This document shows positions 8,245-13,499 of a stretch of 23,426 bases of DNA, piece after piece; positions within the stretch are counted from its first letter, which is position 1, and the number at the start of each line of letters is the position of its first letter. The notes under the pieces are model-generated. The model ran no database searches and was not told the DNA's origin. It was given only the letters and a program-made list of their open reading frames with translations. This stretch comes from a virus. Made by a program: the position numbers and the translations under genes. The stretch covers positions 1 to 23,426 of IMG/VR virus record IMGVR_UViG_3300032278_000120; one strand, written 5' to 3'.

Positions 8245-8334
8245 TTATTCTCCTATAAGAGCTAAATAATAACCAAATACTATTAGTATACTAGCGGAGC
8301 CTAGTAAAACCCATCCTAAATCAATGCAAATCAC
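8245..8334 (-). CDS. 29-aa single-span membrane peptide (possible holin-like)
   Basis: A mini-gene in the gap between terS and the phosphoesterase. Its GTG overlaps the terS stop (GTGA), and its TAA lies two bases before the next ATG. The product starts (V/M)ICIDLGWVLLGSASILIVF and ends GYYLALIGE, one hydrophobic helix of roughly 20 residues with almost no charge. It could be a pinholin-like or other membrane peptide working with the endolysin of the same operon. The peptide has no positive tail, which is unusual for a holin. The main doubt is whether so short a frame, with only a weak GGCGG upstream, is translated. Confidence 0.45.
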   Translation of the reverse strand: MICIDLGWVLLGSASILIVFGYYLALIGE

Positions 8335-9101
8335 TTATCGCCGCCTTTGCCAATCATTTTCCTTTCTACATTCTCGATTTGTTCAGGACTGAATCCCTGG
8401 AATAATCCGACTACCCCACTCTCTATACGCTTAACTCCTCCCCCTAGAGTACCTATAGCCTTACCCATCTCTTTTAAAGATTGTAAAGCAATGTTCTCAT
8501 CAGCAGATGTTTCTGCTAAAAGTTTTAAGCTTCTAAATATATATTCATGGTCTATGCCTAACTCTTTGGCAATATCCATTACGCTTTTTTCTACTTCTTT
8601 CATAACCCTATCCTGTTTTAATAATATTGCAGCCTTATTTTTTGCCTTATCATGGCTTAACTCACCATATGCATCTATATAAGATTTAACAGCCCCCATC
8701 CCCACAGCAACATTAGTAGCAAAGATTTTCTCCTTTTTAGTGACCTTCTTTCTATCTTTGACCCTAGAATTAGTGTCCTTTATCTTCTTACTGAATGTGT
8801 ATCTGTTAGGATGAGAGCCGAAATCTGTGTCCATCTTTGTATTTTTATGGATTAGAAAAGTACCCACTACCGTCCTTACCCAACCATGTGCATATTTATA
8901 ATTTTTACTGTCAGAAGGATGTTTTATATCTTTTGATACTTTTAATAATTGAATAACCTTGTTATCATCAGAGAGTACCCAATCCCCCTCATTTCCACTC
9001 CTCCAGTCGAAGAATATATTGGTATCTGGCATCTCCTTTTGAAACTCATCTAAATCGTCATATACGGAATGAGTTATTCCCTTAATCTTTTTTGACTGCA
9101 C
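8331..9101 (-). CDS. terS: Terminase small subunit
   Basis: A 256-aa protein whose middle has the small-terminase HTH pattern: KEKIFATNVAVGMGAVKSYI, then DAYGELSHDKAKNKAAILLK, with later IDHEYIFRSLKLLAE and LKEMGKAIGTLGG. This subunit recognises phage DNA and recruits the large subunit. The first 110 residues (with GNEGDWVLSDDNKVIQLLKV) form an extra domain not usual in minimal small subunits. The start is GTG at 9101, because an in-frame stop lies immediately upstream; the next Met is at about residue 24. The 5' end overlaps the preceding gene by 20 bases. It lies one module upstream of terL, separated by four other genes. Confidence 0.75.
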   Translation of the reverse strand: MQSKKIKGITHSVYDDLDEFQKEMPDTNIFFDWRSGNEGDWVLSDDNKVIQLLKVSKDIKHPSDSKNYKYAHGWVRTVVGTFLIHKNTKMDTDFGSHPNRYTFSKKIKDTNSRVKDRKKVTKKEKIFATNVAVGMGAVKSYIDAYGELSHDKAKNKAAILLKQDRVMKEVEKSVMDIAKELGIDHEYIFRSLKLLAETSADENIALQSLKEMGKAIGTLGGGVKRIESGVVGLFQGFSPEQIENVERKMIGKGGDK

Positions 9102-11460: not shown

Positions 11461-12225
11461 GTGTCGCAAATCAAACGAAGCAAAGACTATGGTATGTTCC
11501 ACCTCATTGACTGGAATAGAGATGAGACTAAGTATAACTCTCATACTGCTAATCTGCTTAAGTCGATGGAGGTAGTTGGGAACGCAACTGACCTAATGCC
11601 AATAGTCGTTAAACCACTAGATAAGGAATATGCTGATGAGGAATATCCTAAAGGCAAGTATCCTATCTATAACGGTCAGTTTAGGTTCATAAGTGTCAAA
11701 CTTAAGAACGATTGGATATATTACATTGTTGATGTAAAGGATAAGTTAAAGCCTGAGCATCTTCATTGGATTAATGTATCCAAGAGCTGGACATATGATG
11801 ACTATATGAATTATTACACTAAACTTGGATTTAAAGAGTACGCCGTGTACGCTGGATTCAAGAAAAGAAGCAGATGGAGTCATAATTCAGTAATGACTTT
11901 ACTTGCTGGTAATACTAAAGGTATTGCCTCTGCATTTAAAGCTGGTACATTTATGATGTTACGCAGCGTAGCTGAAGCTAATGCAATAGTTGAGATGATT
12001 AACGAATTTAGTATTCATTTCAAGTATTATAAGGCTCGAAGCTTTATTCTAGCCATGCTCAGAATCATTGAGAACGTGGAAGATTATAGCCAAGACAGAA
12101 TGATGCAGAAAATGGACTATTTAAGTGAGCGTCTTGTCCGTTGTCCAGATACGGAGTCTTACATTAGGTTGCTAGAGAAGATATATAACTTCAAGGCAAC
12201 TGGTACATATGTGAGATTCATTTGA
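11461..12225 (+). CDS. ParB-like nuclease/partition-fold protein
   Basis: A 254-aa protein. The N-terminal part resembles a ParB/Spo0J N-terminal domain: LMPIVVKP at 45-52, and YPIYNGQFRFISVKL at about 67-81, the counterpart of the conserved I-D-G-x-H-R motif, here with NGQFRF, so the usual His is a Phe. A helical C-terminal half follows (WTYDDYMNYYTKLGFKEY, LAMLRIIENVEDY) that could be an HTH or dimer region. ParB-like phage proteins include CTPases and nucleases as well as partition proteins; there is no ParA beside it. The start is GTG with AGGAGG seven bases upstream. The large non-coding gap follows its stop at once. Confidence 0.65.
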   Translation: MSQIKRSKDYGMFHLIDWNRDETKYNSHTANLLKSMEVVGNATDLMPIVVKPLDKEYADEEYPKGKYPIYNGQFRFISVKLKNDWIYYIVDVKDKLKPEHLHWINVSKSWTYDDYMNYYTKLGFKEYAVYAGFKKRSRWSHNSVMTLLAGNTKGIASAFKAGTFMMLRSVAEANAIVEMINEFSIHFKYYKARSFILAMLRIIENVEDYSQDRMMQKMDYLSERLVRCPDTESYIRLLEKIYNFKATGTYVRFI

Positions 12226-12228
12226 CCA

Positions 12229-12661
12229 TCACAAGGGGGCTGTATTTAATGCAGTCCCCGAAAATTTATGAGTGAGCTGAGGCTTTATCCATGCATAGAT
12301 AGAGCTAAAGTTATCTTGTGAAACCTGTGGACTTTACTCGGCAAGGGTACGCAGGTAGATTGTTGCACCGTTGGGTGTTTATTTACTTTAAATGGAGTGG
12401 GTAATGGCGATAACAAGCCTAACAATCGTAGTGGGTGACATAAACGATTAAGAGAGAACCTCTTGTCGCGGTATTATTACAGGTTAAGGAGTAGACAGGC
12501 TCCAACTGTGATGTATTGATAGTGTAGTGCTTGGCGTGATGTAAGCGGTTAGCTATCGGCTTATAAGCGTGCGTACCGACAGGTATTCAATACAATATCG
12601 TGAGGTCGAAAGACCCAAAACAACTGCCACCACACTTGCGGGTAATCTCTAATCCTGCCAC
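12229..12661 (+). ncRNA. Candidate large structured non-coding RNA (about 430 nt)
   Basis: The 463-base gap after the ParB-like gene has no credible ORF but many stems. Local ones include GGGGGCTG/CAGTCCCC (12235-12242, 12252-12259), GCTTTATC/GATAGAGC (12282-12289, 12298-12305) and GGTC-GAAA-GACC (12604-12615, a GNRA tetraloop). AATCGT/ACGATT (12424-12429, 12444-12449), AACCT/AGGTT (12457-12461, 12481-12485) and GCGGG/CCTGC (in 12637-12659) are further candidates. TCACAA/TTGTGA (12229-12234, 12316-12321) closes a three-way junction. Hand-counted G+C is 130 of 300 bases at 12301-12600, above the roughly one-third seen in nearby genes, as expected for an RNA gene in an AT-rich genome. It does not match tmRNA, RNase P or group I intron landmarks. 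It could be a distant GOLLD/ROOL-like RNA or a new class. Strand is inferred from the operon. Confidence 0.5.
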
Positions 12662-12688
12662 ACACTCATTTTATTAATAGGAGGCAAT

Positions 12689-12907
12689 ATGCCAAAGAAT
12701 AAATGTAGTATATGCAATGAAGTAATCTTTCCAACTAAGTATTGGAATGGTACACATAATGCACAACCTGTAAATGACGGTGTATGCTGTCGTAGTTGTG
12801 ATATTAATGTAGTTATGCCAGCTAGGTTATCAGAACATGGTTTTGGTGACCTTGAGATTAGAGAAATAATCAAATTAATGACAAAGGAGAACAATCATGG
12901 GATTTGA
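12689..12907 (+). CDS. 72-aa zinc-finger-like protein
   Basis: Contains CSIC (6-9) and CRSC (34-37), plus another Cys directly before the second pair, with a His/Trp-rich loop (YWNGTHNAQPVNDGVC). Two CxxC knuckles 25 residues apart suggest a treble-clef or rubredoxin-like zinc site. Similar small zinc proteins with the AQPVNDG-type motif occur in many phages without known function (from memory). GGAGG lies seven bases before the ATG. It is the first gene after the structured gap and overlaps the next by 11 bases. Confidence 0.75.
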   Translation: MPKNKCSICNEVIFPTKYWNGTHNAQPVNDGVCCRSCDINVVMPARLSEHGFGDLEIREIIKLMTKENNHGI

Positions 12908-13499
12908 CTTATATGGAATAGAACCACATAACCCAACAAATGCAGTTAGACCAGAACATTTAGATTGGTCTGAAGACCATACACAAGAAGAGAAGGATAC
13001 ATATTTTAAAGATGTTGATGACTATGAAAATACAGTAATAGGTTCATATTTTAGAAATAATGTATGGTGGTGGAGACCGTTATGGCAGTTTGTAACGATG
13101 ATATGTGATGATATACTGACAGAAACTGATATAAATGAAGGTGGTTTCAATGGTGGACATAGAATAAGTAAAACTAAATCAAAAAGAATAGCTGCAAGGA
13201 TAAGAAGAGCAGACAAAGAAGGTGTAATTGACACATTTCAAGCTGTACATGATGACAGAAGAGATAAGGCAAATAAACATAACAAAAAAGTCCGTAAAGA
13301 GCTTGATGCCTTGAGTGATAAAGTAAAGAAAGAACTTGGAAGTGATATGGTGCCAATGGACTACCCTGAACCATATAAAACTCAATGGGATGCTATTTAT
13401 GCTAAAGAAGAATGGGAAGGTCATTATCCATTTAATGCAGATAATGTAAGAGAGTTTGGAAAGTTCAGTGATAATTCAGGAGGATTTGAAATATGTTAG
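12897..13499 (+). CDS. Conserved phage hypothetical protein (FRNNVWWWRPLW type)
   Basis: A 200-aa protein with the striking GSYFRNNVWWWRPLWQFV at about 49-66. Its start, MGFDLYGIEP, is also seen in a widespread family of phage proteins with no known function (from memory). Residues 85-100 contain GGFNGGHRISKTKSKR, and a charged helical part (HDDRRDKANKHNKKVRKELD) follows. No membrane span or nuclease motif was seen. AAAGGAG lies upstream inside the preceding gene. The next gene starts inside its last codons (7-base overlap). Confidence 0.8.
   Translation: MGFDLYGIEPHNPTNAVRPEHLDWSEDHTQEEKDTYFKDVDDYENTVIGSYFRNNVWWWRPLWQFVTMICDDILTETDINEGGFNGGHRISKTKSKRIAARIRRADKEGVIDTFQAVHDDRRDKANKHNKKVRKELDALSDKVKKELGSDMVPMDYPEPYKTQWDAIYAKEEWEGHYPFNADNVREFGKFSDNSGGFEIC

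Follow-up and report, generated by a model that had tools for sequence, protein, structure and literature searches.

A gene-free interval in the genome of an uncultured phage carries a conserved structured RNA, a conclusion that we regard as close to certain, with transcription of the interval as a discrete RNA remaining an inference. The best reading is that this RNA represents a new class within the large ornate phage RNAs; that it works in the manner of GOLLD or ROOL is inferred. The window analysed here is the entire 23,426-nucleotide stretch of IMG/VR record IMGVR_UViG_3300032278_000120, and coordinates refer to this window unless another locus is named. We judge the structured RNA to be real because homologues exist, because base pairs change in a compensatory manner, and because a covariance model built from one subfamily detects members of the others. 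The same findings support the proposal, made in a preliminary description drawn from this DNA alone, that the interval is a candidate large phage RNA. Our analysis is limited by the absence of transcript data and by a family of only ten members.

The interval (12226-12688, + strand, 463 nucleotides) is bounded on the left by the stop codon of a 254-amino-acid gene (11461-12225) and on the right by the start codon of a 72-amino-acid gene (12689-12907). As first described, it lacks open reading frames (ORFs), with none of at least 50 amino acids within its bounds. The accompanying remark that all neighbouring gaps are only a few bases was slightly overstated, given that the next longest gaps are 221, 192 and 180 nucleotides, but the 463-nucleotide gap is indeed the longest in the window. 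Its G+C content is 43.6%, compared with 37.1% and 34.2% for the flanking genes and 36.0% for the window, which agrees with the enrichment noted earlier, and the hand count of 130 G+C residues in 12301-12600 proved exact. Stop codons occur 7, 10 and 12 times in the three + frames of 12268-12669. The existence of a conserved protein frame in relatives, an outcome proposed in advance as a refutation of the RNA, is excluded because indels of 1 and 2 nucleotides between the window and a homologous tract (L001, see below) break the reading frame. A protein-coding interpretation was rejected on the basis of these indels and the stops in all frames.

The suggestion that the gap is foldable holds for the + strand only. 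This strand is predicted to fold at -153.3 kcal/mol (z = -4.7; 0 of 100 dinucleotide-shuffled sequences fold as well), whereas the - strand folds no better than shuffled sequences (z = -0.55). An Rfam scan, which the preliminary description had recommended, returned no match for the gap in Rfam 15 at gathering thresholds and, at E-values up to 10, only four chance-level matches, none near the cut-off of its family. Models for group I and group II introns, RNase P, tmRNA and pRNA were not matched, and ARAGORN predicted neither a tRNA nor a tmRNA anywhere in the window, in keeping with the earlier statement that landmarks of tmRNA, RNase P and group I introns are missing. Searches for a clear promoter or terminator for the gap RNA were likewise negative, and we found no prior description of it in open-licence PubMed Central papers.

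Nine homologues were identified in IMG/VR, which together with the window give ten members from at least ten uncultured phages, all of them uncultured viral contigs (the window, L001, L112, L179, L181, L182, L183, L184, L188 and L189). The homologues are 43-72% identical to the window and the members fall into three subfamilies: A (the window, L001 and L112), B (six members) and C (L183). L001 (contig IMGVR_UViG_3300008629_000010) was reached through a relative of the upstream 254-amino-acid gene, and its gap is alike over 417 nucleotides at about 72-73% identity. L112, whose RNA carries inserted extra hairpins, was found among loci around related terminases (E = 4.7e-41, 65% identity to the window). 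A degenerate pattern scan of IMG/VR yielded 14 stretches, and a profile that separated true members from chance accepted L179, L181, L182, L183, L184, L188 and L189. Because the pattern required UGUGAAACCUG..GA..CAGGUA, conservation at this site in the later finds is partly an effect of ascertainment; the discovery of L001 and L112 did not depend on this pattern. Six matches from a pattern scan of genome contigs were unsupported by the family profile or by aligned context and were taken as chance, and patterns around ACCGACAGGUAU and GUAGUGGGUG yielded only the known locus L088 plus chance matches. No homologue of the gap RNA was found by blastn among named phages. The phage is itself only distantly related to named phages, as its terminase shares about 23-25% identity with the best of the matches listed.

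Compensatory changes are abundant in both subfamilies that were folded separately. In subfamily A, 33 of 120 pairs have changed on both sides while 95.2% of cells remain paired; shuffled controls gave 13.2 +/- 2.6 double changes, with 0 of 500 reaching 33, and slid controls gave at most 5. For subfamily B, 32 of 127 pairs have changed on both sides and 98.9% of cells are paired (shuffled controls 16.1 +/- 2.6; 0 of 500 reach 32). A lack of covariation among homologues, also named beforehand as grounds for refutation, is therefore not what the alignments reveal. These shuffle tests take no account of relatedness, however, and each structure was tested on the very alignment from which it had been inferred. 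For this reason the strongest evidence is independent detection by model R1, a covariance model built solely from the 5' 150 nucleotides of subfamily B, which matches homologous places in L001 (E = 1.6e-9), the window (2e-7), L183 (3.8e-6) and L112 (1.5e-5), with the next match at an E-value of 0.45. When R1 was run over 49 related records and another 100 loci, no additional members emerged, and two weak matches (E = 0.017) were taken as chance.

RNAalifold analyses of subfamilies A and B, folded separately, predict the same nested plan. The RNA core (12268-12669), supported by the nine homologues and by the R1 match, is closed by P1, in which AUGAGUG (12268-12274) pairs with CACUCAU (12663-12669). 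Across the family this helix takes four different sequences, with GAGUG/CACUC in the window and UUGAG/CUCAA, UUAGG/CCUAA or GUAAU/AUUAC elsewhere, and yet 49 of 50 cells are still paired. Next come the P2 arm (12275-12312) and the helix P1b (UGUG at 12317-12320 with CACA at 12659-12662), the latter seen in both independent consensus folds. The P3 arm (12323-12356, ACCUGUG...CGCAGGU) is the most conserved element, its conservation in subfamily B reflecting in part the search pattern, and the P4 multibranch domain (12358-12427), closed by GAUUGUU/AACAAUC, keeps 67 of 68 pairs in ten members. The long-range domain P5 (12430-12636; 12430-12435 with 12631-12636) encloses P6, P7, P8, P9 and a GNRA-capped hairpin, with the same nesting in subfamily B. 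This last hairpin (GGUC-GAAA-GACC, 12604-12615) was among those reported initially, and it is kept in L001 and L112 with compensatory change. The final hairpin, P10 (12638-12658, GCGGG/CCUGC), adjoins P1b and is found in members of all three subfamilies. Just 5' of the core, a G+C-rich hairpin (GGGGGCUGuauuuaauGCAGUCCCC, 12235-12259) is predicted from the fold, and an unrelated strong hairpin occupies the same place in L001. A search for pseudoknots in those unpaired columns that all sequences conserve gave no convincing candidate.

Two loops suggest how copies of the RNA might contact one another. The 8-nucleotide loop of P2, L2 (12290-12297, CAUGCAUA), is a proposed self-kissing site that carries the 6-nucleotide palindrome AUGCAU in the window and in L001, and UGAUCA in five of the six subfamily B members, with L112 (GUGCAU) and L182 capable of self-pairing if wobble pairs are allowed. 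A second palindrome, UAGCUA, caps P9 (12540-12565; loop L9 at 12549-12556, UUAGCUAU) in the window and L001 only; the L9 loop of L112 has no palindrome. Palindrome switching of this kind in OLE and GOLLD loops has been interpreted as covariation evidence for symmetric intermolecular kissing loops (Kretsch et al., PMC12286853). The loop evidence is nevertheless only suggestive, because a random 8-nucleotide loop contains a 6-nucleotide palindrome in 4.6% of cases, or 14.6% with wobble. Self-association through palindromic loops, an inference with indirect loop support, is in our estimate an even proposition.

The principal alternative is that this conserved RNA stays monomeric and either binds a protein, as HEARO does with IsrB, or acts alone, as raiA does, such that the palindromes are incidental. 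All of the fold evidence fits such a molecule equally well, the palindromes are only mildly improbable, and L183 lacks one. Set against these points, the 6-nucleotide self-complementarity of L2 (wobble allowed) is kept in all nine members of subfamilies A and B despite complete sequence change, and GOLLD, the equivalent RNA in the same genomic slot of related phages, is a homo-oligomer in vitro (PMC12286853). We therefore view the monomeric alternative as unlikely, but not so unlikely that it can be set aside.

The genes adjoining the RNA bear on whether it could instead be a cis-acting leader, either riboswitch-like or protein-binding, that controls the gene just downstream. The ribosome-binding site of the downstream gene in the window begins within about 15 nucleotides of P1. 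This gene (12689-12907, +) encodes a 72-amino-acid Cys-rich protein with a CxxC...CC pattern, and small Cys-rich genes that look alike by eye directly follow the RNA in L179, L182 and L188, giving four of ten members; a search for relatives of the 72-amino-acid gene found none. However, the downstream genes differ in L001, L112, L181, L184 and L189, a closed domain of about 400 nucleotides is large for a leader, and no alternative terminator or anti-SD arm was seen. A leader function is thus improbable. Nor is the upstream neighbour a fixed partner: the product of the 254-amino-acid gene (11461-12225, +) distantly resembles a ‘ParB-like partition protein’ of Flavobacterium phage lillamy9, with 22% identity, but the adjacency of this gene to the RNA is not conserved. 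The preliminary description had proposed collecting homologous gaps behind ParB-like genes, and this anchor is wrong, since the order is reversed in L001, where the ParB-like gene follows the RNA, and no such gene adjoins the RNA in L112. Upstream of the RNA in L112, about 1 kb (L112:6190-7200) is devoid of ORFs of at least 50 amino acids and possibly contains another RNA or a 5' extension. In L189, an 82-nucleotide match to the Rfam tmRNA model (907-988, - strand, 56 bits) lies just upstream of the RNA; most of the model is deleted, and the match is perhaps a tRNA-like remnant.

The true anchor of the RNA is the interval between two other genes. Wherever both markers fall on the stretch examined, the RNA sits between a TerS-like gene, on the far side of a divergent region (8331-9101, - strand; PHROG terminase small subunit, E = 2e-7), and an MGFDL-type gene (12897-13499, +; MGFDL...YFRNNVWWWRPLW), a conserved early gene. 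Patterns of this gene matched IMG/VR stretches in which 567 relatives were confirmed, and 80 of these were kept. GOLLD occupies this same slot in related phages, exceeding the Rfam cut-off in L004 and L008, and occurring as diverged versions below the cut-off, but with highly significant E-values, in L043, L052, L054 and others. These diverged representatives score 106-141 bits (E ~1e-31 to 1e-41) against the 150-bit Rfam cut-off, and thus are missed at that threshold. A search of 49 records with the GOLLD model gave matches in ten. These ten belong to the 40 records without the new RNA, and the nine that carry it gave no match; the sample is non-random and many records are fragments. A single phage lineage therefore seems to employ giant RNAs that are unrelated to one another at one genomic position.

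The shared slot raises the prospect that the new RNA is a GOLLD or ROOL that has diverged too far for the Rfam models to recognise, particularly as the molecules are similar in kind and a tRNA-Met lies upstream of GOLLD in L008 and upstream of the new RNA in L181 and L188 (there is none in the window). However, neither model matches the window at E-values up to 10 or L179 and L183 at up to 0.5, and GOLLD has no match in the nine member records at up to 0.001, whereas the same GOLLD model detects sub-threshold representatives in relatives. The nesting of helices in the new RNA also differs from the consensus order of the GOLLD 3' domain. By eye, P10 shares an 8-mer with the final hairpin of GOLLD; other members lack this 8-mer, and the resemblance was put down to chance. 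Because the covariance-model test fails for both classes, and because the helix order disagrees for GOLLD, membership in either class is very improbable. The initial suggestion of ‘a relative or a new class’ thus resolves toward its second half, and we hold with high confidence that this is a new class outside Rfam. A self-splicing intron, another ribozyme or a packaging RNA of the phi29 type, which would suit a large phage RNA with kissing-type loops, is scarcely credible given the lack of any Rfam intron, ribozyme or pRNA match, the absence of any sign of a split gene in any member, and the ordinary terminase genes of this phage.

Other records suggest that the TerS-like/MGFDL slot is a hot spot for large RNAs. 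Among the slots of L117, L130 and L132, those of L117 and L132 have in common an RNA-like element of a third kind, which is shorter and is closed by AAAATACGGC...CGTATTTTAA; it belongs neither to GOLLD nor to the new class and has no Rfam match (the L132 tract has z = -3.2 on the + strand). Long noncoding tracts without Rfam matches also occupy this slot in L108 (719 nucleotides, z = -7.2), L035 (440 nucleotides, z = -4.5) and L102 (873 nucleotides, z = -1.6).

As a whole, the explanation that we moderately favour is a free-standing RNA of about 400 nucleotides, of a new class, that works like GOLLD or ROOL. Such an RNA would be co-transcribed within the rightward (early-side) transcription unit and then folded, with its ends joined by P1 and P1b and with the arms P2, P3 and P4, the long-range domain P5-P9 and hairpin P10 inside. 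Through the self-complementary loop L2, and through L9 as well in two members, copies might then assemble into a homo-oligomer made of RNA alone. This particle may act in the course of infection, where it perhaps encloses or retains a component of the host or of the phage. A GOLLD-like role, which is inferred, can be advanced only tentatively, and the core of about 400 nucleotides counts against it when the studied ROOL and GOLLD RNAs exceed 600. More speculatively, the RNA could be an undescribed self-assembling homo-oligomer that is functionally interchangeable with GOLLD, in a lineage that swaps unrelated giant RNAs within a slot reserved for them, with function defined by the slot and not by the sequence; this remains possible but doubtful.

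GOLLD and ROOL build RNA-only cages, for which no function is known. A sequence-unrelated RNA in the GOLLD slot of close relatives offers a natural comparison, because any activity that both RNAs share in this gene neighbourhood probably represents the function. In addition, the new RNA is a shorter candidate for structure work, and the L2 palindrome constitutes a covariation-based prediction that can be tested by one mutation.

Several known systems invite comparison. The phi29 packaging RNA is also a phage RNA and multimerises through loops, but it is far smaller, is tied to a different packaging machine, and its Rfam model has no match here. OLE is an elaborate bacterial RNA that forms a symmetric dimer through a palindromic loop contact with switching palindromes; however, there is no Rfam match, OLE is not known to be phage-borne, and it has known protein partners. 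ROOL, like the new RNA, is a large ornate RNA of phages and prophages whose function is unknown, and it often resides near tRNAs, but the new RNA is shorter and does not match its model at E-values up to 10. GOLLD (RF02032) often exceeds 800 nucleotides and forms an RNA-only 14-mer cage, whereas the new RNA lacks a GOLLD 3' region, has another helix order and no covariance-model match, and has only its palindromic loops as indirect support for assembly. Nevertheless, both are large ornate phage RNAs that occupy the TerS-like/MGFDL slot, both have a tRNA-Met upstream in some phages, and both carry palindromic loops of the symmetric-kissing-loop kind.
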